Of a stretch of DNA of 64,000 nucleotides, positions 36,848 to 62,022 are shown piece after piece. Origin of the DNA: Physcia stellaris (Eukaryota > Ascomycota > Lecanoromycetes > Caliciales > Physciaceae); NCBI GenBank assembly GCA_018902385.1, contig JABSSW010000059.1, forward strand, positions 62,001 through 126,000. The letters are read 5' to 3'. Positions within the stretch are counted from its first letter, which is position 1. The number at the start of each line of letters is the position of its first letter. The notes beneath the pieces are model-generated. The model made no database searches. It worked only from the letters and a program-made list of their open reading frames with translations, and was not told the origin of the DNA. The position numbers and the translations under genes are program-made.

Positions 36848-37679
36848 TACGAACGAAATGAACAAATCACCAAATATGCACCTACAGAATCCGAAATCAT
36901 CACTTTTTATTACTTGTCGATTCGCCTGTCGCTTGTAAGAGTATATATGAATTTCGACAAGCGATTCGTTGTTTTTCATCAGCGCGTATAAATTGATTCG
37001 TACAAGTTTGTTGAGATTTAATATCATTGACATCATTCGAGCTATTTTTTTGATCGTGATTCATAATCGATAAAACGTGTTTTTTCAAAAATTCGATAAA
37101 TTGAATTTTTTATCATTTTGAAAATCGACACAAAAAAAATCAAAAATCATATCAAACGCATTGATCGATAAATTTTCATCATTTTCAAACAATCAATCAA
37201 TCATTTTAATCATTCGCGAATTTTAAACTTGTCGAATCATCATGTTATTGATGTAATTCAAAATTCAATATTCATGAAATTTTTCGCGTCATGCAAAATT
37301 ATGCATACAAACAAAACAAATTTATCAAAAAATAATGATTTTTCGAATTTGCATGTAAAAGATATTTCGACGTCATCAAACGTGATATTTTTTGAAAAAA
37401 TCGTTTCTTTTTTGAAAATGCGATGCATTTATGATATTATTTCATTCATTTTTTTCAATATTTCATTGATTATTTTCAAGATTCGCAATAATACAAATCG
37501 TGCAAAATCGACTTTGCATCACATCAATTACTAAAAAAAATTTTACACGATGCGAAAATCGATCGAAATCACATCAATTGTTGACATTATTAATGAAATG
37601 ACAAATTTTGATGTTTTTATTTCAATTATATCTCGTCGATCGTTTTTTTGATGTTTTCGTTCGATTATATCACGTTCTC
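36821..37679. repeat. tandem duplication, copy A (859-bp unit)
   Basis: Begins GATGCCACCTGATAGATTGT and is followed directly by copy B at an offset of 859 bases. Its first 260 bases, next to the secreted-protein gene, retain most C before C/T; further right it is as AT-rich as copy B. It contains the N-terminal codons of the secreted protein on the minus strand. Confidence 0.85.
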
Positions 37680-38540
37680 GATGTCATTTGATAAATTGTG
37701 AAACATTACGAACGAAATGAACAAGTCATTAAATATGCATTTACAGAATTCGAAATTATCATTTTTTATTATTTGTTGATTCGTTTGTCGTTTGTAAAAA
37801 TATATATGAATTTCGACAAACGATTCGTTGTTTTTCATCAACGCGTATAAATTGATTCGTGCAAATTTGTTGAAATTTAATATCATTGATATCATTCGAA
37901 TTATTTTTTTGATCGTGATTCATAATCGATAAAACGTGTTTTTTCAAAAATTCGATGAATTGAATTTTTTATCATTTTGAAAATCGACACAAGAAAAATC
38001 AAAAATCATATCAAACGCATTGATCGATAAATTTTCATCATTTTTAAACAATCAATCAATCATTTTAATCATTCGCGAATTTTGAGTTTGTCGAATCATC
38101 ATGTTATTGATGTAATTCAAAATTCAATATTCATGAAATTTTTCGCGTCATGCAAAATTATGCATGCAAACAAAACAAATTCATCAAAAATAATGATTTT
38201 CGAATTTGCATGTAAAAAATATTTCGACGTCATCAAACGTGATATTTTTTGAAAAAATCGTTTTTTCTTTGAAAATGCGATGCATTTATGATATTATTTC
38301 ATTCATTTTTTTCAATATTTCATTGATTATTTTCAAGATTCGCAATGATGCAAATCGTGCAAAATCGACTTTGCATCACATTAATTACTAAAAAAAATTT
38401 TACACGATGCGAAAATCGATCGAAATCACATCAATTGTTGACATTATTAATGAAATGACAAATTTTGATATTTTCATTTCAATTATATCTCGTCGATCGT
38501 TTTTTTGATGTTTTCGTTCATTATATTACGTTTTCGATTT
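37680..38540. repeat. tandem duplication, copy B (heavily mutated)
   Basis: Begins GATGTCATTTGATAAATTGT. Over its first 300 bases it differs from copy A by 28 transitions and no transversion that I found. I count 23 of these at CpC or CpT sites (either strand), four at CpA and one at CpG. It ends at about ACGTTTTCGAT. Confidence 0.85.
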
Positions 38541-41261
38541 TCATTTCGTCTAACAGCTTGAGTAGAGCGATGAGCTTTGTATTGATGTAAATTTCGATTT
38601 TTAATCAATATTTACAGCATTTTATTCATTCAATTGTTTCGAAATTTATTGAAATTCGTTTTGACGTAATTGTATGTTTGATAAACGAAAATACACGTTT
38701 AAATTCGAAAAACATAATTGATATCGAAAACACGCTCATAATCATACGTGTAAGAATCGATAATTTTATTCGTTGATTTTTTTATCATGCAACAAGATCA
38801 ACGCGATTTTGTATGATTGATTCGTTGAAATATTGTTTCAATTCGTTTGTTGATATCATTTCACGATTCTTGATCATTCAAAACATGAATTTGAATTCGT
38901 TTTGATTTTCGAAAATTGTAATTCTTGATAATTCAACAGACGTGATATTGTAAATTTGTCACAATTTTTGCATTTTTTTTTTGATTTTTTTTATTCAACT
39001 CATCGTTCAATGTTGATCGAAATAAGTTCATTTTTGAATTGAATTCAATACGATGACGACGATATAAACGAAAATCAAATCGATGATTTTATTTCAATAT
39101 TTTTGAAACTTTTTCAGTCGATATCAATGAATGTTTTCATGAAATCGTTGTCGACGAATTTCGTGATTTCGACAACGTATTGATTCAATAAAAAGTTCAT
39201 AACAGAAAACGATCGATTGATCGTAATTTTTCGATTTTCGATGAATAAAATACACTCGTAAAACGATTTCAAGAAATTTCGTATATCATTTAACGTTCGT
39301 CAGTCAATTGAATTCAGATAATTTTTGATCAAATCGACTTTTTCGATTTGTAAAAATTGAATGATTGTTTTAATTTTCTTTTTCGCAATCGTTCAATCAA
39401 TCATTATATATCAGAAATTTCATTTGATTTGATGATTTCGTTTAGACATGATTTTTTTGCTTAATGCTTTGAATCGTTGAATGCGTTGAGAAATGCGTAT
39501 GACGTAAATCGTGATATTATGCAATTTGTTTTGTGATTCGAATTTTTTGTATTTAATCAACTTTTTTTCATTGAGATTTTCGAAAGCATTTTGTATTTTT
39601 TCGTTGTCAGAATGATCATCGAATAAAAAAATTTTGACAGAAAAATTGATAATGTGTTTCATGCATCGAAAACGATGTTGAATTGAATCGTAATGAATAT
39701 CATAAATCGTTCGCAATTTGTTCGATATGACGATCAACATCGTATCGTTATTTTCGACATTATTCATAACGAAATAATTCAAATTATTTCGAATTTCGTA
39801 TTTTTCAAGCATCGTTCAAATAATTGAAATCATATTTTTTTCATTATGCACGTCGATAATCTTTCTAAAAATCAATAGCAATGTATGAAAATTTTCTTTT
39901 TCGTCAACGAAATGAGTCACAACATCAAGAAACGCGAATTTGTTGTTTGACGTTCAGATATCGCAAATAATATGTATATCAAACGTTGTCGAATTAAATA
40001 ATTGACGCACGCGTTTTTGTTTTTCTTAATAAAACGAATGAACTCGAGCTTTGATGATATTGACAGAAAAAAAAAACATTTCGTTGGCGAATTTACTGAT
40101 GTAATGTAAAAAAATTCTGAAGTCAAAATTTTCGATTTGTTAATATATCAGTTTGTACGATTAAACGAACAAATAAAACATATTTGATTCAAAAGCACAT
40201 TGATCGAAATAATTCAACGAAAATACAAATACATAAGTTGCGCTTTGTCAAGATTGTTAATTATGTATTTCATCGTATAGCGTTTTTTTTTCAATCGTTT
40301 TTTTTCAGAAATTCGAGCAAAAACGATTTGAATTTTGTCATCGTAAATTGCAATGCGCGCGACATTGCGATCGATCAAATCGACTTTATGCTTGATTCGC
40401 AAATGATTTCGTGATATTTTGATTTTTTCATTCGTTTTGTAAAATGTCGTGCAATATTTGCATTTAAATTATTTTTTTTCAAACTCAAGCACAATATTCA
40501 TGTTTTCGTAAATGTTTGACGATTTCGAACGGGCCGCAAAAACAACAGACGAAGCTCGAAAAAATTCTGACGATGTGAAATTCGAACGAGAAAATACGAA
40601 CGAAAATAACATGTTCAAATCATCAAGCAATTGCTCGTTTTCGTCGTTTTCGTGAGAATTGACGTTTGAAAACGGTTGAAAGACTTTCGAGATCAAATTG
40701 ATTTTGATACGTTGTCGTTTTGCAAACCTAAAAGGATTTGACGGCATTACAGATCGTCGTTGCGAAAAATGACGCGTTTTCAACGCAATTGAAATATTTG
40801 AAATCGTGTTCATGAGAACAGTGAATTTGCGAGATTTTGAGATCGATTTGATCATCAGTCTAATTCAAAGAGTTTTTTGATCGATTGTAGAGTTTGTGAA
40901 AACAACAAATAATTCGAAATCTGAATTAATGTTCATATTGAGATGTATTAATGACGTTGTTTGAATATAAAAATATAATGCAAATAATGTAACACTTGAA
41001 ATGTGTTACAATTGTTTGTCGATTGAAAATTTTTTTACGTTCGAATATGCGAATCGTTTTTCAATACAAATTTATTGTTTTTGACAACATGTAAAATACG
41101 TCAATAAATAATAATTTATTGCAACATCATTATACAAAAATGATATTTTGTTCGCGTTAATAATTTTTTCGTTATTTATCATTCAGATTTGATATTTTTA
41201 ACAATTCACAATTCTGAATATATGTTTAAAATTGAAAAAATATTTTTACGATTTACATTAA

Positions 41262-41405
41262 TAGTGCAAACATCGAAAATTCGTTCAAATTAAACATGAA
41301 TGTTAATGCAAAAATGACGAAATGAAAAAAACTTGAAAAAGTTGATTTTTTAATTAAATAGAAAATCAATGTTTCATTTATTTCATTTTTCATTTTTCGT
41401 TTTTT
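41262..41405 (+). repeat. terminal-repeat segment A1 (matches 61625-61760)
   Basis: ACATTAAT, then a short insertion and ATTCGTTCAAA, followed by AAACATGAATGTTAATGCAA, AAATGACGAAATG and AAATCAATGTTTCATTTATT. These match, in the same orientation, the segment between the two direct repeats at the right end of the AT-rich block. It may mark the left end of the same retroelement or of another copy. Confidence 0.6.
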
Positions 41406-44400
41406 CTTTTGCAAATATTTGCAAAAGTCAATTGTAAAAATTCTTACATTAATTTTTGATGTAACATATTTCAATTTTTCGATTTTCGCACACTTTTTGA
41501 TGTAATATTTCGTTCGACTTAATTAAAATTCGATTTTATTGTTTTTTCGTCGTCGCAATATGAACATCAAATTCAATTTCGTTTTAAACAAAAACAATGT
41601 CGTTGTCGTCAAGAAAAACAATGACAACGATGCATTCAAATTCAAACAAATTGTTCGCAAACGAATCACATTCGAAATAGAAAATCGTATTCGAATTAAC
41701 AAAAATACACGTTTTCGTTTTATTTCGAAACGTTTGCTTTTTCAAAAATTTCGTCGAAAAAAAGTTTTTTCGACGCATCGATTTGCGAATCAAAATTTGT
41801 TTTGTTTGATATTCGAACGCTCAAAATCGATTCGAAATTATCGAATATTCTCAACGCATGTTCGCGAAACTCGATTATTTATTCGTTTTTCGATATGAAA
41901 AATTTACAAATAAAAATATTTTTTTTAACATCAAATTTATACAGAAACAAAATGTCATTTATTTAGTAATTTAAACAATTTCGTTTTTTTTTTTTATCTG
42001 TCGATACAATCGTTTTTTTTACGACATTTTCGTTTTTTTCAAAATCGATGTCATTGATTGATTTTTTTTTGTTGTCGTTTTATATTGTTTCGCGAATTTC
42101 ATGTCGTTATTCATGTAATTTCTATCGTACAATTTCTGAAATTGATTTCAATCGATCATATTGTTGATATAATCAATGTCGTCGATGTTTTTTGTTCTCG
42201 AAATTACATGAACATTTCGAATTAATGATGACAAAACGTAAAATCGTCGATTTTTAAAAATCGTCGATTAATTTCAATCGTTTGATGTTATTTTTTTTAT
42301 TTTCATTATATCGTGAATTGAATTAATTTGAATTTTATTACGTATTCGTAACAATAAAATCAACGTTTCAATGTATTTCGTCGATTCAAAATTGTTTCGA
42401 AAATTTCGCGAATTTTTAATAATCAAAATCAAATTTAAACGATTTATCATTTTTTCATTCAATAAATAAAATTCGTCGTTTCGCATAAAATTGTTTGATT
42501 CGTGTTTTTGAATTCATACAAAATCGCATCAACGTTCGTTTATTTTTTGTCAATCGAAAATACATCGAAATATTTTTTCGATAAAATGATGCATATTTTT
42601 GAAATTTTTTTTCAATTTGTTTCACATTTTCAAATTTTCATGCATTTGTACAAAACATTGAATCATTCAATCAACATTGTTTTTCAATGTATAATTAAAT
42701 TTTCGAATCATTTTCGTGAAAACATTTTCGATCGAATCGATCATTTTTTTTTTCGTTTTTTTTTGTTTTATGAACACGATTAATATTTGCAACATATCAA
42801 ACACGTCGATTTTTTTCGTTGTTATTGACGTTCAACATCAATTTTTTGAAATTACATTTTTGACGTCGTAAATGTTGCAATTCAATTTTTGAACGCGATC
42901 ATTTCAAATTTTCAATGTTTTTCGTTTTTGTGATTCGATTGATTTTTAACGTTTTATCAATTTCGTTTTCGTTTTGTTGTCAATTTTTGATATATCGTTT
43001 CATATTTTTTATTGCGAATACGTTCAATTTTCGAATATCATGTTCAAATATTTGCGTTTCGAAATTTCGTCGTTTATTGATACGTTGAAAATTTTTTTTC
43101 AAATGATTTATGTGATTTTGTTCGTCAATGTCGATGTTTAAAAAAATTAAAATTTCGAATTTTTTGATGAAATGAATATAATGCACGAAATTGTGCATTT
43201 TGAATTGATTGAATTGATTATTTGCATGATATAATCGCAAAACATTTTTGATCGTGTCAAAAAATTTTAAATAATAATTTATTTGTCGCAGCGTTTTTTT
43301 TGTGTGCGAATACGATTTCGTTATTTGATAAAAATTGATCATAATTTTGATACAAAACAATATTTTTGATTTCGTTTTTTTGAAAAACGACGTCATCGTC
43401 GATAACATTTGACGCAATATTTGTTTATGTTGTAATTTTTGTCATTTATTCATTTTTGTGAAATGTTTAAATTCATTCAATTTTGTATAAAACGAAACGC
43501 GACGATATGTTTTGTTCAATTGCACAAAAATTTCGTTTTTCGTCGTGCAATTTGCAATCATTGCTTTTTTCATTCATTCATTGAAATAGATGTTCGCGAT
43601 GTTTTTTAACATTTGATGTAACAAATCAAAAAACATTTTTTCATGTACATTGAATAGATGATGTTTTTATGCAAAATTTCGAACTGATTTGACGTATTCG
43701 TGTTTTTTTTTATTTTTTTTATTTCATCGCTCGATGCGTTGTTTTTTGATTTGTCGTTTGATTTTTTCGTGAATTCGAATGTTTCAAAATTTTTGTAAAT
43801 TTTCAAATTCTGATTTTGAAACATAACAAATAAAACAATGTTGTTCATTTTTTACATCAATGATCAATATTTGTTCGAAATAATCGACGAAAATGTCAAT
43901 TAATATCGAATGACATTATCGCAATTTGTCGTTAACACATAATATTTTCAATTCATTTTTGACATATTTTTTCAAAATTATGAAATGTTATTAGCGAAAA
44001 TACATCGAACGTTTCGAATACGAAAAATTTACGTTTCAACATGATTTTCATTGATTCGTGATAAAATTCGTTTTTCACAAAATCTTTCGAATTGTTTGTT
44101 TTTTTGAATATTGATATCAAGTTCAAAAACAACACGTTGAAACGTTCTCGCTGTTTTCGAATGATTTTATTCAAGTTGTCAATGTTTATATATATTGATT
44201 ATAATTTTTGTTTTTCGCAAATCGTCGTCAATGTCGTTTCGTCGATTCATAAACAAATAAATATCACGATCGATTTTTCATTCAATTGTTTTTGAATTCG
44301 TCATCATCAATCGTCGATATGCATTTTCGTTCAGATTTTTTTATTATCGTTTGTGACATCGAACTCATTAAGATTGTGTGTAATATATCGTCGTTCTGAA

Positions 44401-45594
44401 ACATATGTTAAATTGTTCACGAATTTCTTGAATTTCATGAGAAATTTGATCATTTTAATGATGTTTTTATAATAAAATTTGTATTTGTTAATCGCAACAT
44501 CACGTGCGTTAACAATCGTTTTCAATTTTTTTTCGAATCATTCGTCGTCGAAAATTTCAATTTTCATTCGTTCAAATTTATTCAATCACTTTTCGTCATT
44601 TTTGAAAAATATATGTTGTCACAAAAATTTTAATTTGAAATTGTCAAAAAAATTATTCACAACTTTTTTCGTTACACGAATATTGAATAAATATTTTGCG
44701 AAAACGAAATCGATTTCGATTTGAAAAAAATGATAAATGACGACGTAATGTTCATTAAAATTTCTGAATTTTTGAGTTATGTCGATATTGACATACGATA
44801 TTTCAACTTTTTTGTCAATGATTTGTTCGTATGTTATTGTTTTGTTTCAACGATTTTTCGTTTCATGATCATTTTCATACAATTTCGATACATTGTTGAC
44901 GTTTGTCGAAATCTGATTTTCATTTATATTTTTCGAAATTTGTTTTCGCGTCAATTTTTAAAGTTGTTTTAACATCGATGCGAATACAATTGATTTTTTT
45001 GTAAATTTCAACATTTTTTTGCGTGATTGAATCGTCGCGATCGCGTCATAAATTTCACGACAAAATTTGACGTGTTTTAATCATAATTTAGATTTCGACG
45101 CGACAAAAATACAATTGTTACATCGTCAATCATTCATTTTTTTCAGTCGTATCTGTGTTTTTGTCGAAAATATCGTGATGTTTTGTTGATGATTATCGTA
45201 CACAACAAAATTTTTCGATTATTAGATTTTTGCGTCGTTTCGCAAAAAACAATACAAAAAAAATCGAAATCGAACGATCAAATATCAAACAAACAATAAT
45301 ACACGAATTTCTGAAAACACGCGTGTTCGAATCAGCAATGACATTGACAATTCGAATAAAATATATAAACGAATTTGCGTGTGTGTTCGATTTGATATTT
45401 TCTGTTATATCAATGCAAACAATAATTTTCATTGAATCATTTATTCAATGTTTATTGCGTGAATGAATCGACAAATGATCATGCGAATCACGATAAATAT
45501 TGTTGTTGATTTTCACGCGATTGCGTTAATTGTCGAATTGCAAATTTTCGAAATCAATTTGAAAAAATTAATCGATTCGAATTCATTCAAACAC

Positions 45595-47405
45595 ATCACA
45601 ATTCGAAACGACAACATTTGTTTTTGAATTTGTTCGTCATTTCGATATCGAAATTTGACGAACGAATTGATTTGTGATGTTGACGATACGAATGATTAAA
45701 TTGACAAAAAACAAAAAATGAAAAATAATCGAAAAAATCGAAAATTGTCGTTTTGCTGATTTCGTGATAATGTTTGTATGAATAAATGAATAAATTGCGA
45801 AATCAAAATTTTGTCAAATTCGAATCAATGAAATCGATCGACATGTTTCATGTATTGAAATTCGTTTCAATTATTTATGCAAAATAATAAACATGTGAAA
45901 AAAATAAATACAAACAAAAAAATTTGAAAAATAATAATTCATTTCGAAATTCATTTTTCACATCAAATTTTTTTTCATCGTTTCGAAATTGAATTTTTTG
46001 AAAAAAATCACAATCATTGCGATCATATCGTGTTGATACAAAAAATTTTCGTTTTCGTAATATGTTTTGATTTCGATCACGTAATTTTGAAAAAAAAAAA
46101 ACGCGTTCGTTCAAAAACAAAAATTTTTTGATTAAATATAAAAAATTTCGAACAATCATTCACGATTGCATTCAATCGTGTTTATTCGTCATTTCGTTTT
46201 TTATCGCAATTCGTTGAATTGATATGTCGTTTTCAATTTGTAATTCAATCGTTTTGATTAAACGATTGACATGTTTTCGCGCGACATTTTACAATGTTTT
46301 TTTTGTTATTTGAAAATCGTGAATTTCGCGTTCGAATGAATTCATAAAAAACAAATCAAAAAAAATCAAAATTGCTTTTGAGCAAATTCATTCGATTTCG
46401 AAAACGCGACAAAAATGACAAATGTTCATTATCAATTTGTCGTTCGACGCGATCAAATTCATTCACGTTCGTAACGTATGCGATTGTTTTTTAGACGAAA
46501 CGATTAATAAAATTCGTTGAACGATCATCAAATCGAACAAAAAAAAAATTGAACAATTGAAAACGAATTTGTTCTCGACAATTTTGCGAATTACAAAAAA
46601 TTTCAATCAAAATGATTTTGATTTCAAACGACAACGTAAATTTAACGAAACGATCGAAAATTATGTTCAACATAATTCGCATTGCATTCATTAAAATCAA
46701 CTCGACAAAAATGTCTCGAAATTGAATCACATTTTTCACGATTTCAACGATGTTTTCTGTGTCACATTCGATGTCAAAATACATTTCGACGAAATGAATG
46801 AAAAACAACGAAACAGCGAATAAATCGACAATAAATACATGATCAAACATGAAAATGTCGTAAAATTTATTGACATGTTAAACATAAACGACATTCAAAA
46901 ATTCGACGATCGTATAAATGTGTTTTTTATCATTGCGAATCATTGCGTGTTTCATTTTTATGACAATTATCGAAACGAAAACGTCGACGATTGCAAATTT
47001 AAAAATAATCAATTTGCGAAAATTATTTTGATGATATTTATAATGTCGTCGTTAATATCGTCGTTGATAAACATTTGTTTTCATCGATTAATCGAACATT
47101 TTCAAAATTTCGAAATATTGAAACTAAAAATATTTATTTCGATGTTGAAAAGTCTGAAATAAAAATAATAATTGAAAAAAATAACAACAAAAATTAAATC
47201 GAAATAATTGTGTTTCAAAAACAATATTGTAAAAAAAAATCAAAAATTGATGAAATGTTACATTATCAATAAAATCGTTTATTTGAAAGTTTTTGAATTC
47301 AGAAAAAAAATTATGCTGTATGTGAAAAGATAAATAAAGAAATTGAAATGAACAAATGAAAAAAAAAAATCGACGAATTCATACGTGTCATTGTCATGAA
47401 AATGA
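45595..47405. repeat. 1.8-kb repeat array, unit 1
   Basis: Shares in order with units 2 and 3: AATCAATGAAATCGAT and CGACATGTTTCATGT, then a long minus-strand frame resembling FIVDLFAVSLFFIHFVEMYF, then AACATTTGTTTTCATCGATT. Period to unit 2 is about 1.8 kb. Origin unknown; probably a degraded transposon. Confidence 0.65.
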
Positions 47406-49190: not shown

Positions 49191-49925
49191 TTGTGACGAC
49201 AACGCGTGTTTGTCGAACTTGTCGTCACATTCATTTCGAAATTCGACGAAAAAGTTGACGTATGATGTTGACAATATGAATAAATGAATAAACAAAAACG
49301 AAACATACGACATCGCTGAAATAATTGAAAGTTTTCGTCGAATTGAATCGTGATATTGCTTGTGTGAATAGAAAAATAAATTGAAAATAAGAAATTCAAC
49401 ATTGTTAAATATAAATCGATGAAATCGATCGACATGTTTCATGTTTTGAAATTTGTTTCATTTATTCATGCGAATCATCAAAAAGCAAATACAATTCAAA
49501 AAGATTCGAAAACAATAAAAAAATCATTTTGAAATTCATTTCTCATCGTACAATTTCTTTTTTTCTTTTTTTCGTCACAAAATTTGAAGTTTTGAAAAAG
49601 ACAACAATCACGACAACTAAATTCAATTGATACATTTATTTTTTGTTGTTATAATGCGTTTCAGCTTTCATGACGTAATAATTGAAAAAAAAAACGATAA
49701 TGAACATTTGTTCGCATCAATGAATCAAAAATCGCTAAATTTTCAAAATATTGAAATCAAGAACATTTAACTCGATGTCAAAAATCGTATAAAAAACGAA
49801 AATAAAATCGCGTCAAATGCGAAAACATGAAAAGAAATCGAAAAAGAAAATGCGAAATTGATGAAATGACGATTTTATCAATAAAATCGCTTATTTGAAA
49901 ATCGATGAACGTGAAAAATATAAAT
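49191..49925. repeat. 1.8-kb repeat array, unit 3 (internally deleted)
   Basis: Starts with GACGACAACGCGTGTTTGTC and CGACATGTTTCATGTTTTG like unit 2. It then jumps at about 49690 to the right-hand part of the unit (GAACATTTGTTCGCATCAAT; TCAATAAAATCG). About 1 kb of the unit is missing. Confidence 0.6.
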
Positions 49926-52900
49926 TGAACGATTGTTTTTGAAATGAAAAAATTATCAATAAACAACATTAACGAAAAACACGTTTCGATAAACATTCAA
50001 CGACGATTTTTTGTCATCACGCGTTCGAAAAGATTTATCATTCAAATTCGCGTTATTTTTTTCAATTTTCGAAACGATGTGTTTCTGAACAAAAACGTAA
50101 CATATTTTTGACGTGATCATCGATTGAAATTTATTTGTTTGATAAAATGTCGATTGTTTCGACAAAATCAAATTAATTCATTGTTTATTAAATTTTTCAT
50201 GATTGTCATCATCATGTTTCGCGAAAAAATTTGACAAAAAATAATCGTCGACTATTGATCGAATGAACGCATTCAACGAAACTTGAATATAAACGAAACG
50301 ATGTACAAAAAAATCAATGTTGTATTAAATATCGAGATTGCAATTTATATATTTGTTGACGACAAAATAAACAACGTTATCGTTAAAACAAAATTGCAAT
50401 CGATTTTCGATCGATTTATCGAACGATTCGAAAATGTTTTTCGTGACGTTTTTAAAACATGAATTGAAACGTGTTTTGTTTATTGAGCACAAAAATGTAA
50501 CAACAACAAAAAAAAAAAAAAACGTGATGATTTTTTTTCAGTTTTGAAATCACAAGAATTTTTTTTTCAATTCGATCAAGTCATTATTAATTGTAAACGT
50601 CGAAAGAAAATTATAAACATGAAATGCAAAATGCGAAAATTGATTAACATCGACATATCATTTGTTAACATAACGATGAACGATTTGAAGTTTGAATTAT
50701 TTATGAAAATGCTGAAAAAAAATTTGAAATTCGATTTCGTCACAGAGACTATTTACTACAAACTGAAAAACAGTAAAAAACAATGATGTAACTCGATTCG
50801 ATTTTGAAAAATCGTTTTGTTTGAAATGTATTGTTTGAATCTGATTCGCATTTTTTTTACGATTGATTTATTTAGCGAAAATACGATGCAAACTTTGAAT
50901 GACATTTGAAATCATTATTAATCACATTGTAATTTGCACAAAATTCATCAAAAGATTTTTCGAAACAAAAACAAATGCAAAAACGATCGTCATTGAATAT
51001 TCAATGTCGAACAAAAATTTTTTTGAAAAAAGAAATTTTCATGAGTCGTCGAATTCAAAAGAAAATTTTCAAAGAATTTGTCAACGTTAATTGTGACAGA
51101 AAAAGAATGACGCGAAACATCGTGACGACGAACAATCGAAAAAAACGCAAAACGATTTCTGATTGAAAATTTAATTACAATCGAAAATCGAATTGAATTG
51201 CGATCAATGATCAAGTCAAATTTAAATCAATTCGATTCGAATTTATATGTTAAAATTATTGATACAAATTCAATTTGAATCAAAACAATTCAAATCAATG
51301 CGTCAAAAATGTTGATGTCAATATTCAATTCATTTCGTAAAATTACACATTGTTATCAAACAAATCGATTCGACGCACAACATATTTCGCATAATTTTCG
51401 ACAATTTGTGTATTTTCAATCAAAAAAATGATCAGTTTTTGCAAAATCGTCATTATTTCATTCAGTGTTTGAAAATAGTGTTTCATTTTCTCGAGACGAT
51501 TTTTCATCGTTTCGACACGTTTTTGCAATTTTTTCATCGATCGATATTTCGATTTCACAACATTGAAATTTTCGACACGCGTTTTCAATATTTGCATTCG
51601 TCGTTTCAATCTTTTTAATTTTTTGAATTGTTGACACAGATTTTGAATTTCGTTGACATTAAAATGATCATTTCGATCGAAACGATGATGTACAAAAATG
51701 ATACGAAAAATAATGAAAAAAGAAAAATCGTTGTAATTTGAAATTTGCGATTTCGTTAAAATGAATCAATTTGACGTCACGTTTATCATTTATCATGACG
51801 AATGACAATCTTGATACGATATTTTGATTACAACGAATGTCATTAAAAAAATGAATCAAATGTAAAAAAAAAAAAAACGACATGTTATTCAAAACAGAAT
51901 TCACAACAATCAAAATCATAACAACGCGTGAAAAACACGTTATAACGATTAAAAAACAGAAATTTTTATTTGCGCGTTAAAATAATTTAATCGATGCAAT
52001 CGATTTTAACGATTTTTGACGATTAACGAAAAATTTCTGATCGTGATATTGTCATTAAAAACGCGAAATTTGAACATTTGTTTATCGTCTCGTTTTAAAA
52101 AAAATGAATTCGTTTTTTTTTTTTTTTTATTTTTTCTATCATACACGAACAGTTTATCATTTTTTGTTTTAAATTATTCAATAAAAAATTATCGAAATCA
52201 CACATCACGCGACATATTTTACGATATATTTTACATATTTTTTCGTCGTGTTTGATCAAACACAATTATGTTTTTTAATAATTTCATTGCAAAAAAGCGA
52301 AAAACGTCGTTTCAACTTAAAATTTTGACGCGTTCATTTCAACTGATACGTTGTATTTTATTGATTTGACAGAAAACAATATTGATAATTATTGATATTA
52401 CGCACAGAATCAAAGAATTTCAAACGAGATGAACACACGCGTCGACGAAAACAATCAAAACGTGAATTTTTTTTTTCAGTTTCGCGATACACAAACATTT
52501 AATCACGAATCAAAACGTTATTTTTTTATTTTTCGTCGCAAACGATCATTAGAAATCGCACAAAACACGCGATATCAAATTCACGAAATCGACGAAAATT
52601 TGATATCGTTTCGCAAAATCAAACGCGTAATGAATAAATTAATTGACAATGTTACGAATATCAAACTAATATCGCTATACAGAATGAAAATGATAGCATC
52701 ATTCAAATATCATTTTCATCGCGAAATCAGAAAAAAAAACAAATGTTCGTGAACGCAACACGTGATATTTTTGCAATTTTCGAAAAACGATTTCGATTTT
52801 CACATATCAATGAACATGTTCGCGCGAATTTCGACGTCAACGAATTTGTCGACGAATTCGAAAATCATAATAAAAAACAATATTTTTGAAACAATCTAAA

Positions 52901-55900
52901 TCGTCGTGTTTGAACGAAACACAAATCGATTTCAATTCATCGCGCGATGTTAATCAAAACATTGAATTATTTAGTGATTATGATGATGTCGAACAATGCA
53001 TCGATTTGAATAACATTTTGATCAAAACATAACTCGAACGTTTTTAACGAATTTATAAATCGAATCTGAATTCATTGCTCGAAAAAAATAAAATGACACA
53101 AAAATCGTGTCGTGAAAATTGACGCGATTTCAATCGAATTTGAAATTCGTTAAATTCGATTTAAATTTTCGTTACGAAATACAATTATTAACGAACAACA
53201 AATTTTACGACAATATTGAATCGCACAAATTTCATATCATAACAAAAATCAAAAATTTTGTTTTGATTCATTATGATTTCAATATTGTGAAAAATTCACA
53301 CGAATTGACAATTGAATTTTTTCACGAACACGTTTTCAAAAATTGAAATTGACAAAATTTTGTCGTGAAAACACATATTTTCATTGTCAAAATTTGACGT
53401 TATTTTGAGATTTTAATCATCGTTTTTTGTTACGAATATTATTGTTCACGCGATATTCGATATATATTATCGTAAATCGAATAAAGATTTGACAAATCAA
53501 TCAATCAACAAAAATCTATTCATTTTTTTTCGTTCAAGATTAATGTGTTTCATTTTCATCATGATTCACTGTGCAATATTCGAATACTCGTCTGAGAATA
53601 TTCGAAATAAAATGTCATTTGAAAACATCAAACAGAAAAATACGATTACATCATTTTTGAAAAATTCTGTTAATCACGAAATAAACAATTTTGATCGATA
53701 CATGATGATATGAAAAAAACTGAAATCAAAAATGCAAAACGAATTGACGATTTATTTTCGCAAAACGATACACAATCGAATCAAATTGAAAAATAATGAA
53801 AATGATACGTCGACAGCAATATCGAACAAACATAAATACATTTTGAAATTTTTGACAATTTTGAATCAATTCAGACAAATCACAAAATTTCATTTCAAAA
53901 ATTCAATTCGATCGATGTCGAGTCAATTGTTTCGTGATTCGATTCGAAAATTTGTGTCATTTCAAAATCGCATTTCGTTTATTTCAAATTTGAAATTGAA
54001 CAATAATGTCATCAACGATTTTGTTTCGATTGAATCGAAAAAAACAATTTTTTTAATTTCATCGTTTTTTTGTTTTTTTTCGTCGATTGATAAAAAAAAC
54101 GACACACAAACGACAACATTTAAATCAAATGTCGAAACGATCGATGACGATGTTGCTGTGAAAAAAACGATAAAAAACGTGATAAATTTGTCGAAAACGT
54201 AAATATTCAAATCTTGATTAATTTTCAACACAGACGAAAATGTCGAACGATAAATTGCAAATGTCGAATAAAACGATGTATGAAAACGAAAAGACGTTCG
54301 ATATCACAATGAACGATCAATTTTTCGCGTTGTTCATTTGCGCGAATTACGTTGATTTTCGAAAATCGTTTTGTTTGAAAAATTCGTCGATGATATGATA
54401 CAAAACTGATGATAATAATAATCAAAACAAATGCATTCGAAATCAAAAAAATTTTCGACAATTTAAAAAATATTTGACAAAACATCAATGACGTGCGAAA
54501 ACAACGATTGAAAAATTGAATGTAAATCGTAATCAATTTTCACAAAGATTCTGATGAATTAATTAACACGTTCGTGAAAAAAAAAAAAAATAATGTCGAA
54601 TTACATGAAAAAAAATGAAAATGTTTGAAATAATTAGAAAACAATCGTCAATCGATTCAAACGAATTAATGTTGATTATACGTTTATGATATACGATGTT
54701 ATTTGATTTATTCAATGTCGACGACAATTCATATTGTTGTATATAATTATAATGTGAAAAATCGAATTGATTTTGATGTCATGATCACGTGAACAATGTT
54801 GAATTTCACGAATATTTCGAATGATTCGTGATTTCGAAACAACAATGACAAATGAATACAACAAATGAATTCAAAAAATTTGCAACAACAAAATACTTGA
54901 ATTAAACATAAAACGTAAACAAGACAAAATGAACGCGATTTTCAAATCAAACGAAAAACACAATACGTCAATTTTGTCATTAATCAAAAAATACATCATG
55001 ATTTTGCGAACATTTCATCATAATTTTTGATAATTCATAATATGTTCGAAATCAATGTATGCGTAATTTCGAATGTCACAAAACGAAATTTGTGAATTTT
55101 CGATTTCACGATTCGAAATCAATTCGCAATTTTTCATGAAAAATAAACTTTTTCTCGACGTCGTCAATTTTCGTCGCAAGATTTTTTTTTCGTTTGAACA
55201 TTTCGAAAATCAAATCGAAAATCTCGACGATTTCGACGTTCACGACGATTTCGAATTTATCGACGTAAACGATAACGACGTATTCGATCAATTTCAAATT
55301 CGACGATCACGTTCGAAAACGACAAAAATTCAAAATTTGAAAAAATATTATGTTGATTTTCGTCGTCAATTGAAAATCAAAAAAATGAAAAAACAATTGA
55401 ACATCAATTTCGTTATTCAACGTATGTTGTTTTTTTTTTCACATTTTTTTATTTTTTTGCTCGTCGTGTTTTTTGCGTTCGATTTTCAAAATTTTTATTT
55501 TCAAAACGTGTTTTTTACGCACGATTTGATCAATTCATATTTTGATTCATCGAATTTTTGAGTTTTCATCTTTGCGTTCACGACGAAAACTCGCACGAAT
55601 TTCTTGTTGAACAACAATTTCGAATATTCGAAAATTGAAAGAAAATATTTCAACGTGTCGTTGCGTCTGCTCAAAAACGTGTACAACGACACGTTGAAAT
55701 TCAAAAATTTTTCGAAATTTTTTTTTTTTTGATTAGCGTTCAATGTTTTTGTCGATTTTCGTGCAAAAATTTTCAAAAATTTTTCATTTTTGTTGACGTC
55801 ATTGAAAATGTATTGCAACATCGTGTTCGATTTCGCTCATTCGAACATGCGATACGAATTGATTTACGTCATGAATCAATATCGTGTTCGCATTTTGAAA

Positions 55901-56022
55901 ACATATTTTTACAAAACGTGATCATCGATTCTGATTTGACATGAAAAAATTTAATTCGAATCATACGCATTGATCAAAATATCGCAATCAATTGAATTAT
56001 CAAACACAATATTATCGAATGA

Positions 56023-56265
56023 ATGTTTAAAAATATCGTCATTATCGAATTTAATCAAAAATCGACGAATTCGCAATCGTTTTTCATTTCACGCACGATC
56101 AAAAAGAAATTCGATCGTTTGACAATCAATAACGAAATTTGTCACGCGTTCAATAACAACAATCGTTGCGAATTTGAATTTTGCAAAGGAAAATATATTT
56201 GCATCAAATGTCAACAATCAAATCATAACAAATTCGAATATTTCGATATCAAAATCGTCAAATGA
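56023..56265 (+). pseudogene. retroelement zinc-knuckle relic
   Basis: A frame with CHAFNNNNRCEFEFC followed by CIKCQQSNHNKFE. The Cys/His spacing matches the zinc-binding segment found upstream of the reverse transcriptase in fungal tyrosine-recombinase retroelements. The flanking protein is a string of N, K, I and F, as expected after heavy C-to-T mutation. It is the left-most recognisable part of the relic that continues at 57.1 and 60.6 kb. Confidence 0.55.
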
Positions 56266-57115
56266 TTGATCGATGCGTTTTCTTTTGACTTTTTCTTTTT
56301 TTCTTTTTTTTTTATTTTTCAAAATGATCATGTCGACGTCAATCGAATGATCGTCGAAAAACTTTTATATGACGTCGTTTTCGACAATTTTTTCGATTTC
56401 GAAATCAAAATGTCATTGAAAATCAAAACATGAAAATTTTATTTGTTAAAACATTTCGATCAACATTTTGTTTCGAAATTGCTTCGACATCATTAAGCGA
56501 AACGCGAACGTCGAATATATCGAAAATAAAAAATTTTTCGTTTTTATTAATCATCGTTCGATCAACGAAATTTCAAATATATTCATTGTCGATTTCAACA
56601 AACAGCGAGTTGTTCAACGAATGTCAAAAATGTTTTTTTTTTCTTTTCACATTACATTTGTTTATTTTTAGATTTGATATTCAAGCACGACGACGAATAA
56701 AAACGTATTCACGATTTTTCGTATTCGAAAAACGATTCAATCAATGAAAACATTATTGAAAATGCAAAAATTTTGAAATACGTAACGTTCGATGAAATCA
56801 TTGCGATATTCATATTTCAAAAACGTGATGTTGTTATGTTCAAAAAAAATTTTGTCAATACATTCAGACACGTTTCGATGATTTTTTTGAATCGTTGATT
56901 ATTCGATTTCGAATGAATGAAAATGTATTATATGAAATTGTTTTTATCGTTCGATTTACGTATTGTCTTCTTTTTATTCGATTTATTTGTTAAGACGTTG
57001 CATTGAATCTTGATCGAAATTTGCGAATTTTGCATAATTTTTCATTATTTGAACGACTTTTTGATCATCATGAAGTTTTTCACGAATTCGAAATCATTCA
57101 AGAAAATATGACAAC

Positions 57116-57451
57116 ATGTTTGTCAAAATTTCGATTTCGAAACAAACGAAAAAAAAAAAATCTGACACAAAATTCGAATTTCTTGACATCGAACTCGACA
57201 ACGAAACTATAAAAATCAAATTTTTTTCAACAAAGTTGACGAAAACAGTAAAATTTGTCAACGAAATTTTCATCAAAAAGTTTTTCACGTATCGCGAAAT
57301 CGATTTTTTCGTGAATTTTTTGTTTTTTTGCACGAAAATCGTCGTTTCGAAACGTTTTTTTTTCATTTCACTTTATATCGTTCGAAATCGAATTCGAAAC
57401 GTCAACAGATTTTGCAAAATCATCGAAATAATACGTTTGAATTTGCAATGA
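57116..57451 (+). pseudogene. reverse-transcriptase C-terminal relic (DIRS-like)
   Basis: The frame contains FEFLDIELDNETIKIKF, then LTKTVKFVNEIF, TYREIDFFVNFLFFCTKIV and SKRFFFISLY. This follows the pattern 'FLGIELDT....L..LR.L..L.G.L.F..KVV..GR.FLR.LYD', the palm/thumb end of DIRS/Ngaro-type reverse transcriptases. The upstream part (about 56.4-57.1 kb) is broken into several frames. The next part of the element is interrupted by the LTR insertion at 57925. Confidence 0.6.
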
Positions 57452-57924
57452 TGACAAACGTTTTTATTTCAATGAAACGACGTGAAGATTTTGCGAACGA
57501 TTTCGTATCGATTTTCGAATCACATTTGAACAAATGTTTCAGACAATTGAAACATAAAAAATTTTTGATTTCGAAATCGTCAAAACAAATTTTTCGAAAA
57601 ATTCAATTTACGATATTCAATTCGTTATCGTAATCGCACGTTCGATATTCAAATCAAAAAAATGCGAATTGTGTTGAAAATTTTGCGTTAATAATTATTT
57701 CATTTCGAAAACAACAAAATCATTATTCATTGCGATAATTAAATCGTTTGTTTTGAATTTATCAAAAACACGATACACGATTTAACAATGACGTCGTTTC
57801 GAAACGTCGTCATGTTGTTTGTTTTTCACGATATCATCGTCGAAATGAAATGATTAAATTCGAAATTCAATTATTTGATTGATTTATTTTCACGTGATGA
57901 ACACGATAAAATCGTTGACGAGTA

Positions 57925-58108
57925 TGTAAGGTGTCATGCAATGATATGGATAAACAACAGGATTCTAGACTGCAGAACTAACTATGAGGGCCTGACAGAT
58001 CATATGTAGATGATTTGGTCATAGCCGGGATCCGGGCCAGGATCCCGATGTGATAAGATAAGGATCCAAACATCTACCAGGATCCAAACACATAGTACGC
58101 TCGTCACA
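57925..58108 (-). repeat. 3' LTR (element sense), mutated copy
   Basis: Differs from the other LTR by ten transitions. In every case this copy has the T (or A) and the site in the other LTR is CpC (or GpG). No other change seen. Confidence 0.9.
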
Positions 58109-58145: not shown

Positions 58146-59777
58146 CTAACCATCTCTCCCTCCTCTCATCGGCCGGCGATTCGAGGGGTATCGTTGGCTA
58201 GAACGTGGGTAGTTGAACAGGCCATTGCGAAAGCTGAAATGACCGAAGCAGATGCAACAAACGTGATCTGGGGTCCGAGATCGAAAGGATGGCGGAGATG
58301 TAGACGGAGACGCAGGCGGAGACGTAGACCGAGACCATGCGAATGAGAACCTTGACTGCAGGAATGAGGACCTTGACTGCAGCGAGGTGTAGGAGATGCC
58401 TGACTTTTTGTATGGTGAAATGGCCGATTTCTCTGGCAGAGCAGGACGGATCGTTTCCGCAGGCGTAGGCTGCTGAAAACTCTTCGGATTCGAGCTTTTC
58501 AGACCCTGACTAATCGGTGCCTTCTGATTGGCTGCAGGCAGGAAGTAGGCGGTGATGCGAGACTGATAGAGAGTGCCAGGGCTTCGTGGAGAAGGACGGC
58601 GCTTTTGGTGCGAATGTAGGCCAAATGGCCTAGGCTTCCCACGAAACATGCGGATCAGGTCATCGATAGTGAGATAAGGTTTCTGGTGTTTTAGTACAGG
58701 TGTTCGAGGAGGTGAAGCCGAAGGTGTAAGTGAAGCTGGTAGTTTCTCCATCGATTCTGGTGTGGTTCTATGTGTCGCAATCGGGAGACTCGAACACTTC
58801 GGTGATACTGGTTCAGATATCGATGCAGGCCATGATATCGGCTTTGATGTTGCAGGGGAGGTCGGTGGAGCAAGCGGGCAATTGAATGCTGCAATTTCGG
58901 CGCGCTTTGGTGTAAAACCTCGTGTGGCTAGCATCGCTGCTATCTCCGCTTGCTTTGGTGTAATATTGGGTGTCGCAATAGGGAGATGCGAACACTTTGG
59001 TGATATCGATGCAGGGTAGGATATCGGCTTTGGTGTTGCAGGGGGGGTCGGTGGAGCAAGCGGAGCAGGCGGGCAAACTGCTGGCTTCTCCTTGGTTTTG
59101 TACATAGATTCTGGTGTAGGGGATCGGAGATTCGAGTTGGTATTCGATTTCTGAGTATGCTGCTCGCGGATATGCTCGTGAAGCTTGTTCTTGGAGTTGA
59201 AGCCTTGCTCGCAATGCTTGCAGACGGCCCTGGAGCAAGCGTTCTCTTGCTTGGTATGCTCCAGAAGTCGACTTAATGAGGAGAATTGGGCGGAGCATTC
59301 GACGCACGAGTGATACTGAGGCGGAGGATGTGAAGCAGGTGTAGTAGATGACTGATTTGGTGTTTTCGGTGCGGGTTCAAGCGAGGTAGTAGGAAATGCA
59401 CATGCTAGGCCGCGGCCGAAGTCCTGTATGGTGGTGAAACTTGACTGACTATTGAACCATACGAAAGCTGGTCCTCGAAGGCATTTGGGTAACAGAGCGA
59501 GCACATCTGACTTCCGATATTGGTGTTGACTTTGCTGGCGCTCAAGGTGTTGCAGAAAGCCTGTTACTTGACTATATAGATCGAACTCCTGGATATCACA
59601 TATGAGTGTTGGATCGAATATACCGATATCACGGGGTGTTGGTATAGGTCTTGCAGCTTCGATAGCCTCTCTTTGAGCTCGTCGTTGACGTAGAACTTGC
59701 AGCCGTTGTTTGGCTTTCAGGATTTCGGCTTTCGCGATCTCGGGGTCTGCTCGCTTCTGAACTTCTGGACAATGCAT
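58146..59777 (-). CDS. Gag-like protein with C2H2 zinc fingers
   Basis: 543 residues from the ATG at 59777 (MHCPEVQKRADPE). An N-terminal helical, basic part (KAKQRLQVLRQRRAQREA) precedes a Gag-like core (FDPTLICDIQEFDLYSQVTG, LPKCLRGPAFVWFNSQ, with the conserved A..W pattern of retroelement capsid-like domains). Two C2H2-type fingers follow (CVECSAQFSSLSRLLEH and CKHCEQGFNSKNKLHEHIREQH), replacing the usual CCHC knuckle. The remainder is long, proline/serine/threonine-rich and probably disordered, with an internal duplication (TPKQAEIAAM / TPKRAEIAAF; LPIATPN / LPIATHR). The C-terminus has CCICFGHFSFRNGLF, a possible third finger. The frame is intact, so it could still be expressed. Similar genes in fungal genomes are often annotated as C2H2 proteins. 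Confidence 0.8.
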   Translation of the reverse strand: MHCPEVQKRADPEIAKAEILKAKQRLQVLRQRRAQREAIEAARPIPTPRDIGIFDPTLICDIQEFDLYSQVTGFLQHLERQQSQHQYRKSDVLALLPKCLRGPAFVWFNSQSSFTTIQDFGRGLACAFPTTSLEPAPKTPNQSSTTPASHPPPQYHSCVECSAQFSSLSRLLEHTKQENACSRAVCKHCEQGFNSKNKLHEHIREQHTQKSNTNSNLRSPTPESMYKTKEKPAVCPPAPLAPPTPPATPKPISYPASISPKCSHLPIATPNITPKQAEIAAMLATRGFTPKRAEIAAFNCPLAPPTSPATSKPISWPASISEPVSPKCSSLPIATHRTTPESMEKLPASLTPSASPPRTPVLKHQKPYLTIDDLIRMFRGKPRPFGLHSHQKRRPSPRSPGTLYQSRITAYFLPAANQKAPISQGLKSSNPKSFQQPTPAETIRPALPEKSAISPYKKSGISYTSLQSRSSFLQSRFSFAWSRSTSPPASPSTSPPSFRSRTPDHVCCICFGHFSFRNGLFNYPRSSQRYPSNRRPMRGGRDG

Positions 59778-60183
59778 CGTTCGTATCGCAAAGGTTGGAG
59801 AAGACGGCCGATTTGCTAGGAAATAGGTAAGGATTTCGAAAGGTTCTCGAAGCAGGTAGGTGGTTCGAGTGCTGAGTTATCGTGACGGTTCTGAGGTCTG
59901 GTATGAGGTTTCGGAATCCACTTTCTGAAGGTGAGGGGGGTGTGAATGCTTATTTAATCTCGCGTATCACAAACGAGCGATAGGTAGGTTGTTGTATTGG
60001 TCTGAGTAGGCGTGTAGGAGGGAGGAATCGAGATTCGTTGGTGGCCCAGATATCTGGTCCTGGTCGACGAAGCTCTGCTGCGAAATGGAGTCCGCAGTGC
60101 TCGGTCCAACTGCCTGCCTTCAGGCTATGGTTGAGGCATGTACGAAGACATACCCCGATGGGTTTGGTAAGAGTCTAGAATAA

Positions 60184-60367
60184 TGTAAGGTGCCATGCAA
60201 TGATATGGGTAAACAACAGGATTCTAGACTGCAGAACTAACTATGGGGGCCTGGCAGGTCATATGTAGGTGGTTTGGTCATAGCCGGGATCCGGGCCAGG
60301 ATCCCGGTGTGATAAGATAAGGGTCCAAACACCTACCAGGATCCAAACACATAGTACGCTCGTCACA
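60184..60367 (-). repeat. 5' LTR (element sense), less mutated copy
   Basis: Retains C or G at all ten sites that differ from the other LTR. Followed by the right copy of the target duplication GAGTA. Confidence 0.9.
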
Positions 60368-60612
60368 GAGTATTCACAATTGCAAACTCGTCATGATCAA
60401 TTTTCGAATTAAATTTTGCATTCAGCGACGATGTTTCAAAATATTGATACGTTCAAATCTCGTTGAACAAAATGACAACACGTTTTTTGTGATGAGATTT
60501 GATTTCGAACATTCGCAAAACATACAATTTCGCAATCAAATCATACGTGAAATTTTGCGCATTTGATGACATTCAAACATTTTTTTTTTTCATTTTCGTT
60601 ATCGACGATTGA

Positions 60613-61326
60613 ATGAATTCGTTGAGCATACGACAATTCAAATCGAAAATTATCAAAATTTATATAACGACATTACGTTTTGTTTGCGTGAATCGAAAAT
60701 ATTTCGATTTCAACATTTTCAACGAGCTTTTGTTGCAACGCGAAATCGATAAAATCAAACGTATGTATGAAAAAAACGAAAAACGTGAAAAAAAAATTAT
60801 TATTCGTGATATTCTGTTAAATATTTTGCAATTTTTCGATATTCGCATCAAACGAAATGCAACGTTGCACGTCGCATTCTGTTTGATTTTTGCAAATTTT
60901 TTGCGTATTGATGAATTTATTTGATCAAATGTTGATCGTATTTTCGAATTTAACAAATGAAACGTTATTCGTTTTTCGATGATTTTTTTCGACGATCATT
61001 TCATTTTGACGTTTTTTGTTTCGAAAATCGATTCATTTCGCAAAAAAATTTCGATATTCATTGCGATCATTGACGATGTCGTTTGTGCGTTGATTTCATT
61101 ACGCAATTTTTTCGAACGTTTTTTTGTTTCAACGTTTTTTTTTTTATTTCAAATCGATCAGTCAAAATTTTTCAATGCAAATTACGTCATCATCGTATTA
61201 CAAAACGCGATTACGAATTTGAAATTCGAAAATCATTATTCAAATCATTTTTTTCGTCGAAACGTTGCAATTGAAATTCGCAATGCGAATGTTTTTGACG
61301 ATTTGATCAAATTTTTAAAAAAATAA
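60613..61326 (+). pseudogene. tyrosine recombinase relic of a DIRS/Ngaro/PAT-like retroelement
   Basis: Two consecutive frames (60613-60924 and 60979-61326). The first has LHVAFCLIFANFLRIDEF, the helix that carries the first catalytic arginine. The second has DDHFILTFFVSKIDSFRK, then SLRNFFERF and HYSNHFFRRNVAIEIRNA, the HxxR box. These match the order in the tyrosine recombinases of fungal DIRS-like retroelements (..AAFCLAFAGFLRMGEF.., ..LPASKTDPFRKG.., ..YSGHSFRRGAAT..). The final catalytic tyrosine region is lost: the frame stops soon after. Typical changes are Gly to Asn/Asp, Pro to Phe and Leu to Phe, as expected from C-to-T and G-to-A mutation. Confidence 0.7.
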
Positions 61327-61472
61327 AAATTCGAAACGTTTTTGTTGTATATCGAAAATAACAAAAAATATATTTTTTATGCATCGCGACATCATCAAAA
61401 CGATTGAATTGTTTTTTTTTTCGTTTTTTTGACGACGACGTCGTTTTTCGACGTGTCTTGAAATTGTGAAAA

Positions 61473-61630
61473 AATAATTAAATTTTGAAAATTGTTTTGT
61501 TGAATCATTTTGTTACACGAAATCGATTTTGCAAAATCATTTTGTTTTGCAAAATCATTGTTTACAAATCGATCATGTTCAAAACATCAAAAATTTTGTA
61601 CATAACAATGAAAAAAATACGCAACATTAA
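61473..61630 (+). repeat. direct repeat B1
   Basis: From AATAATTAAATTTTGAAAAT to ACGCAACATTAA, repeated as B2 at 61863-62020. It differs from B2 by at least 13 transitions, all with T/A here and C/G in B2 and all at CpC or CpT sites. Confidence 0.75.
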
Positions 61631-61862
61631 TTCGTTCAAACTAAACATGAATGTTAATGCAAAAATGACGAAATGAAAAAAATTTGAAAAAATTGATTTT
61701 TTAATTAAATAAAAAATCAATGTTTCATTTATTTCATTTTTTATTTTTCGTTTTTTTTTTGTTTCGTTCATTCATTTTTTGTTTTTGATTTTTTTCGACG
61801 TTTTCATTTTTTTTGAAGATTTTTGTTTTTTCGTTTCGTAACTCAGTCGCAAAAACAAAAAA
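61631..61862 (+). repeat. segment A2 between the two B repeats
   Basis: Its first 130 bases match segment A1 at 41262-41405 in direct orientation. With B1 and B2 it makes the order B1-A2-B2, the arrangement known from PAT/Ngaro-type split direct repeats. It matches the unmutated copy at 29550-29800. Confidence 0.6.
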
Positions 61863-62022
61863 AGTAATTAAATTTTGAAAACTGTTTTGTTGAATCATTT
61901 TGTTCAACGAAATCGATTTTGCAGAGTCATTTTGCTTTGCAAAATCATTGTTTACAGACCGATCATGCTCAAAACATCAAGAATTTTGTACATAGCAATG
62001 AAGGAAGTACGCAGCATTAGTC
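61863..62022 (+). repeat. direct repeat B2 (outer end of the element)
   Basis: Ends TTTTGTACATAGCAATGAAG and ACGCAGCATTAG. The same terminal block closes the unmutated copy near 29925. B2 is less mutated than B1 and abuts normal DNA. Confidence 0.75.

Follow-up and report, generated by a model that had tools for sequence, protein, structure and literature searches.

A window of 64,000 nucleotides from the genome of Physcia stellaris, a lichen-forming ascomycete of the Caliciales (contig C59, JABSSW010000059.1, positions 62001-126000), contains a long AT-rich block. Its repeats raise the question of whether repeat-induced point mutation (RIP), which prefers CpA in Neurospora, can act on a different dinucleotide. 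A first-pass annotation of this window had proposed exactly that, a RIP-like process hitting CpC and CpT instead of CpA, and had left two causes open: RIP machinery with an altered context, or a different cytosine deamination process. We addressed this question in an assembly of 43,974,083 bases in 147 contigs, somewhat smaller than the published one (46.57 Mb, 184 scaffolds, GC 43.32%; PMC7513301). The published assembly was derived from an ascospore culture of a thallus collected on a park bench, and the genome note, in its Methods and the passages available to us, makes no mention of RIP (PMC7513301).

Loss of CpC and CpT in the AT-rich block

Within the block (37300-57900, 20.6 kb, GC 0.268), we counted 9 CpC on the two strands together versus ∼742 expected from base composition, and the dinucleotide odds ratios were 0.01 for CpC, 0.18 for CpT, 1.30 for CpA, and 3.40 for CpG. 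Relative to the genic flank, CpC fell from 5.65% to 0.02% of dinucleotides and CpT from 6.60% to 0.89%, while CpA (6.39% versus 6.86%) and CpG (6.12% versus 5.22%) stayed close to their genic frequencies. Converting every CpC and CpT of the genic flank in silico gave a sequence close to the block in GC (0.242), CpA (6.86%), CpG (5.22%), TpT (20.0% versus 17.8% in the block), and TpA (4.68% versus 5.19%); in silico conversion of CpA failed to resemble it (TpA 18.4%). The genic DNA of the window was of normal composition (GC 49% versus 27% in the block), as were four of five arbitrary 10-kb samples of the genome, the fifth being mixed. The block is at least in part a dispersed repeat, as the 4.3 kb at 45700-50000, the portion covered by our genome-wide search for partners, has nearly full-length copies, 92-96% identical, on contigs C34, C136, and C81. 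A Pfam search with the three longest standard-code frames of the block gave no match.

Repeat pairs inside the window gave the same picture. The two tandem copies at 36821 and 37680 differed in their first 300 bases by 29 transitions and no transversions (CpC 6, CpT 17, CpA 5, CpG 1), and over 838 bases at 6/6 CpC, 23/28 CpT, 14/125 CpA, and 1/84 CpG sites; the CpA differences ran in both directions (8 and 6) and look like background. At its outer end, on the left edge of the block, copy 1 kept CpC and CpT where copy 2 had lost them. A young, GC-normal long terminal repeat (LTR) element of 2.4 kb with TG...CA ends (57920-60372 with its target duplications) interrupts the already mutated block, and its two LTRs differed by ten transitions, all in the left copy and all at CpC (CpC 10/32, CpT 0/20, CpA 0/30, CpG 0/10). 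Repeats B1 and B2 differed by 14 transitions, all at CpC (2/2) or CpT (12/12), with CpA 0/28, CpG 0/8, and two transversions; a fourth pair, 41278/61629 (132 bases), differed at CpT 5/5, CpA 1/15, and CpG 0/6. These recounts bear out the annotation almost to the base: it had 28 transitions for the tandem copies (23 at CpC/CpT, four at CpA, one at CpG), the same ten for the LTRs, and at least 13 for B1/B2, all at CpC/CpT, and its tally for 55081-55260 (32 C, of which 0 are CpC, 3 CpT, 9 CpA, and 20 CpG) was reproduced exactly. Two older block pairs (D3 and D6/11; 78-84% identical, with 32 and 20 transversions) have their transitions mostly at CpA/CpG (29/35 and 33/42). They are uninformative about context because hardly any CpC or CpT remains there; of the few CpT sites left, 6/7 and 9/12 differ.

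The same target in three transposon families

We then compared copies within the genome for three transposon families: the LTR element of the window, a set of reverse-transcriptase loci, and a DDE_1 element. Among 30 reverse-transcriptase loci, 22 had CpC odds of at most 0.11, two were partly converted (L030, L041), and six were normal. The cleanest of nine long comparisons with the GC-rich locus L025 was that of L042, where 3462 aligned columns held 912 C:G-to-T:A changes and a single other substitution, none of the differences being a transversion, so that 912 of 913 substitutions were of the one type. Converted sites amounted to 430/432 CpC, 448/459 CpT, 26/441 CpA, and 0/407 CpG, and the CpC/CpT conversions were near complete on both strands (371/376 and 507/515). 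A transition excess this large points to a burst and not to slow decay. Because all 26 CpA changes of L042 run one way, a weak activity at CpA is probably real. The other eight comparisons had the same context with several hundred transitions and 9-21 transversions; CpG was changed at 10-28 of 369-409 sites, and as T-to-C changes were similarly many, this suggests ordinary divergence.

The DDE_1 element (L055 versus L061) followed the same rule (CpC 221/278, CpT 185/302, CpA 20/294, CpG 18/309, 64 transversions). The LTR element belongs to a family with at least 92 matching pieces in the genome, and we compared the window element with 19 other loci, which represent 15 distinct copies since four locus pairs overlap; no pooled total was used for this family because overlapping loci would count some copies twice. 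Six copies were converted (L010, L011, L012, L014, L016, L020), as in L010, which differed from the window element at CpC 268/289, CpT 214/307, CpA 23/319, and CpG 16/270. The window element is itself lightly hit at CpC (35/308 relative to L002, with CpT 12/295, CpA 11/297, and CpG 17/266). A preference for CpA, or transitions without a dominant CpC/CpT context, either of which would have contradicted the proposed target, appeared in none of the three families; the RIP-like signature at CpC/CpT appeared in all three.

Order of hits and sequence context

Of 30 comparisons, 18 gave an alignment of at least 400 columns and were used for the order of hits, the other 12 being dropped. Per site, hits at CpC exceeded those at CpT by a factor of 1.2-3.8 in 17 of them and of 1.09 in L018, the remaining one. 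CpC also came before CpT in the LTR pair, where 10/32 CpC and 0/20 CpT were changed, and at both edges of the block, which lose CpC first and where mutation fades outward into the flank over 300-400 bases. With nine mutated copies pooled, the converted fraction of CpC was 0.990 after A, 0.960 after C, 0.970 after G, and 0.984 after T, and that of CpT was 0.835, 0.884, 0.827, and 0.897, respectively; the 5′ base hardly matters and the 3′ base decides. In the same pool, 3653/4023 RCY sites were changed versus 219/4038 YCR sites (R, purine; Y, pyrimidine), and in L042 neither TCG (0/115) nor CCG (0/100) was changed at all. The order of targets is thus CpC > CpT >> CpA > CpG, on both strands and after any preceding base; the direction is C to T, conversion is nearly complete in heavily hit copies, and genic DNA is normal.

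RIP indices and stop codons

The stringent index set commonly applied to detect RIP is built on CpA and TpA (PMC7882544), and the annotation had predicted that indices of the TpA/ApT type would miss this mutation. We scored windows of 500 bases drawn from the 64-kb window, from loci mostly fetched for their transposons, and from the five 10-kb samples; six overlapping loci were excluded beforehand and some overlap remains. Of the 304 windows with GC <35%, the stringent set flagged 0 as RIP-affected (PMC7882544), in line with that prediction. CpC odds were below 0.1 in 281/304 of these windows and in 5/309 of the others, and CpA odds were below 0.7 in 0/304. For the block, TpA/ApT was 0.39 and (CpA+TpG)/(ApC+GpT) was 1.40, not the raised first and lowered second value of CpA-type RIP. 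An index fitted to the observed target, (CpC+GpG+CpT+ApG)/(TpC+GpA+TpT+ApA), had a median of 0.06 in the 304 low-GC windows and 0.89 in the 309 others; it merges two indices that are defined in RIPCAL, though off by default (PMC2621366). Near-complete conversion under a rule opposite to CpA is thus scored as absent by the stringent set.

Stop codons provided a complementary view. Among the best 150 of 527 candidate RVT_1 matches, 10 of which had no stop, we counted 250 TGA, 33 TAA, and 3 TAG, and ten DDE_1 matches held 44 TGA and 3 TAA. When a 441-codon frame was fully converted at CpC/CpT in silico, 9 stops arose, all TGA, because TGG reads CCA on the opposite strand; conversion at CpA made 21 TAG and 7 TAA. 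The dominance of TGA (250/286 of the RVT_1 stops) is what CpC conversion predicts and not what CpA conversion predicts, and it agrees with the annotated scarcity of nonsense codons from CAA, CAG, and CGA. Since CpC/CpT conversion makes fewer stops (9 versus 28 in the same frame), broken elements can keep long frames, which gene finders may call genes.

Candidate enzymes

The annotation had also called for a search for RID- or DIM-2-type methyltransferases and for deaminases of the APOBEC/AID kind. Searching the genome with PF00145 gave four matches, apparently from three genes. One of them, L022, has a long open frame, is related to DIM-2, and matched the solved DIM2 structure 9bap, titled apo-DIM2 in Foldseek, at E 2e-181. 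The other two, L021 on C6 (C6:791557) and L023 on C5 (C5:499307; annotated as G7Y79_00005g016670, to which it was identical over the region searched), have PCQ and, in motif VI, EET (L021) or EQT (L023) instead of ENV, which we take to be a mark of the RID type. By this motif and by their relatives, both are classed here as putative RID-family methyltransferases, an assignment made independently of the Neurospora RID sequence. L021 contains two internal TGA codons, which lie inside stretches missing from its full-length Heterodermia relative P0007, as introns would. Both types occur in Heterodermia and were placed apart from each other in a quick tree (68 selected rows, 165 columns, no bootstrap), in which we ignored rows P0086 and P0160, whose long branches probably reflect a cut at the wrong place. 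The L021-type group seen so far comprises Physcia, Heterodermia, and about 30 other proteins, probably from lichens. An AlphaFold model of P0007 (mean predicted local distance difference test score, pLDDT, 78) matched the folds of DNMT1, MET1, DIM2, and CMT, and residues 430-458, presumably where the target-recognition part would lie, were nearly all below pLDDT 50, so the choice of base is unreadable from the model. A second rid copy is by itself no novelty because two have been reported in Anisogramma (PMC10998396). The methyltransferase part of the search thus succeeded for both types; the deaminase part gave nothing firm, as the PF08210 profile had no match in the genome and was equally silent in all control genomes.

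Weighing the explanations

We consider it likely that most of the AT-rich block derives from transposons or other repeats and was degraded by RIP-like hypermutation, C to T, of cytosines that precede a pyrimidine, and RIP with a switched target is the best reading of the pattern. Under such a mechanism, recognition of repeats would be needed for mutation, mutation would take place in the sexual cycle, and the agent would be one of the two RID-family methyltransferases, L021 or L023, whose target recognition would have moved to a pyrimidine at +1. A more specific proposal, which we offer tentatively and would not favor as it stands, is that the L021 type is a dedicated mutator reading the +1 pyrimidine, in effect a RIP enzyme that has been re-targeted in nature and spares CpG and CpA, so that silenced DNA keeps methylatable CpG.

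Several observations weigh against this reading. Many repeat copies are intact: twelve loci of the LTR family (L002-L009, L013, L015, L017, L019; eight distinct copies), which in their best stretch match the window element at 81-93% identity, had little or no conversion, and L018 was barely affected (CpC 22/116, CpT 25/142, CpA 12/146, CpG 12/126). Two reverse-transcriptase loci, L026 and L027 on C5 and C12, are 95% identical over 3468 columns, GC-normal, and without CpC/CpT conversion, a sign of some repeats escaping. Either the process is inefficient, or the unmutated copies are young or escape it. Partly mutated copies showed no strand clustering (z from -2.1 to 1.5 across 11 comparisons, one of them the LTR pair); in Neurospora crosses, 91.9% of mutation clusters were strand-exclusive (PMC7296669). 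The copies we tested are probably products of many rounds, which would blur such clustering. Purified RID, moreover, is said to be inactive in vitro (PMC13297926).

We were concerned that heterochromatin as such might be mutated at CpC/CpT regardless of homology, with trapped unique DNA included. Such a process would account for the fading of mutation into both flanks and for intact repeats sitting elsewhere, and since partners were sought genome-wide for 45700-50000 only, much of the block may be unique. That piece, however, has three further copies at 92-96% identity, the mutated loci that we looked at were transposons (though they were selected as such), and edge fading has also been described as leaky RIP (PMC10998396); on balance we regard mutation blind to homology as unlikely. 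Much the same applies, with slightly less weight, to a DIM-2-type route without any RID step: methylation of heterochromatic CpC/CpT and later deamination of the 5-methylcytosine, or DIM-2-linked mutation during growth. The DIM-2 relative with its long open frame would be at hand, functional Dim2 promotes mitotic C-to-T changes in Zymoseptoria tritici (PMC8016269), and a 2026 review has Neurospora DIM-2 preferring CpT (PMC13297926). Against it stand the 912 transitions without a transversion between L025 and L042, which speak against slow decay, the light hits of the left LTR, which are already confined to CpC, and the Zymoseptoria data themselves, in which Dim2-linked mutations fall at CpA and CpT methylation is hardly detectable (PMC8016269).

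The remaining alternatives fared worse. Dense C-to-T tracts, and the fact that 8 of the 10 LTR changes are on one strand, would suit a DNA cytosine deaminase of the AID/APOBEC kind acting on single-stranded repeat DNA. Such enzymes read the 5′ neighbor, and here the 5′ base is almost without effect, the 3′ base decides, and the 11 comparisons showed no strand clustering; a deaminase is largely refuted and very improbable. The two causes that the annotation had left open are thereby partly separated, the flat 5′ context speaking against AID/APOBEC and genes of RID and DIM-2 type being present. A still smaller probability attaches to an artefact or to natively AT-rich DNA, that is, to nanopore miscalls at modified bases or to foreign DNA of odd composition. 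The published assembly does rest on Nanopore reads, which were polished in two rounds with Illumina data (PMC7513301), although short reads correct repeats less well. Some copies are converted to nearly 100% on both strands, the extent is graded from copy to copy and across the edges, and genic DNA shows no conversion; for the copies compared with GC-rich relatives, a native AT-rich origin is excluded by the direction that pairwise comparison gives. Finally, CpC and CpT are dipyrimidines, and a lichen on a park bench (PMC7513301) is exposed to the sun, so C-to-T changes from ultraviolet damage come to mind. Genic DNA was normal, and the counts given above for YCR versus RCY sites and for TCG and CCG refute that signature, as ultraviolet light would also hit TpC and CpC that precede a purine; we give this explanation practically no credence.

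Comparison with known systems

The RID-dependent RIP of Neurospora crassa shares with the Physcia pattern the exclusive C:G-to-T:A change on both strands, the destruction of transposons, the AT-rich islands, and genes of the RID and DIM-2 types. It prefers CpA, and CpC is its least used site; in Physcia, CpC comes first and CpT second, CpA is barely and CpG not touched, and the strand-clustered hits of Neurospora are not seen. A CpT signature in transposons has been tied to RID/Masc1 in Magnaporthe oryzae, Botrytis cinerea, and Sclerotinia sclerotiorum, where CpT accompanies CpA, whereas in Physcia CpC exceeds CpT and CpA is spared; that study names CpA, CpT, and CpG, and "CpC" is absent from its main text (PMC4352252, Amselem et al. 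2015). CpC depletion and, in some repeat classes, much CpT change were noted in Stagonospora nodorum, but CpA dominates there, and RIPCAL defines a CpC index (PMC2621366). Microbotryum and other basidiomycetes also have C-to-T changes in transposons with a fixed context, CpG/TpCpG (PMC4352252), the opposite of Physcia, where CpG is best protected (0/407 in L042). The methyltransferase-linked C-to-T changes in transposons of Zymoseptoria tritici differ in being mitotic, tied to dim2, and in a CpA context (PMC8016269). RIP has also been described in Cladonia rangiformis, a lichen-forming ascomycete with a compartmented genome, RID and DIM-2 homologues, and mutated transposons, whose text contains neither "CpA" nor "CpC" (PMC12542154). 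Its mutated DNA peaks at a GC of ∼16% (PMC12542154), and because this lies below the 24% floor of pure CpC/CpT conversion in Physcia, other contexts are presumably hit there.

Badet and Croll surveyed 1,239 fungal genomes and concluded that a CpA preference is common to RIP-like defenses (PMC12543289), and our searches of open PMC papers gave no report of a CpC-preferring RIP, a scope that leaves subscription papers (e.g., Clutterbuck 2011) and supplements aside. The target switch of this RIP-like process is confirmed, extreme, and, within the reach of these searches, unreported. With a published GC of 43.3% for the genome, and with genic DNA at 49% and the block at 27%, a rough estimate is that the process may have affected about one quarter of the genome. 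How RIP comes by its target dinucleotide, a standing question, becomes testable by comparing RID-type proteins of species that mutate CpA with those of species that mutate CpC/CpT.

Features of the window

Table 1. Coordinates of the block, its edges, and the repeats in the 64-kb window.
Feature	Position	Strand	Basis or remark
AT-rich block, GC 0.27, CpC/CpT conversion almost complete, at least partly repeat-derived	37100..57919		Composition; 4.3-kb piece repeated elsewhere
Right-hand continuation of mutated block past young element	60373..61900		60368-61900: GC 0.267, CpC 0, CpT odds 0.12, CpG odds 3.54
Left edge, CpC lost ahead of CpT over ∼300-400 bases	36700..37100		100-base profile; tandem copies
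Right edge, CpC likewise lost ahead of CpT	61800..62100		100-base profile
Tandem repeat copy 1, with fewer mutations than copy 2 in its outer 300 bases	36821..37679		Pair alignment
Tandem repeat copy 2, mutated	37680..38517		Pair alignment
Older repeats ∼1.8 kb apart within block, 65-87% alike, transitions now mostly CpA/CpG	45811..50000		Alignment
Left LTR (TG...CA) of young element, with ten C:G>T:A, all CpC	57925..58108		Target duplication GAGTA 57920-57924
543-codon open frame of young element, no Pfam match	58146..59777	-	Zinc-finger-like Cys/His spacings by eye
Right LTR of young element, without those ten changes	60184..60367		Target duplication GAGTA 60368-60372
Repeat B1, mutated	61469..61629		Pair alignment
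Repeat B2, at block edge, less mutated	61859..62019		Pair alignment

A long open frame at 35405-37036 starts in the left edge gradient, and its start codon is doubtful because the first codons run through partly mutated repeat DNA. It has 543 codons, as does the frame of the young element, and the two proved unrelated despite their equal length. Short pieces of the genic stretch 29750-29923 have counterparts (49-55 columns, 80-87% alike) at 61580-62020, on the block's right edge, where the copies are changed mainly at CpC/CpT. A 5S ribosomal RNA gene lies at 13744-13862 on the minus strand, within normal genic DNA.

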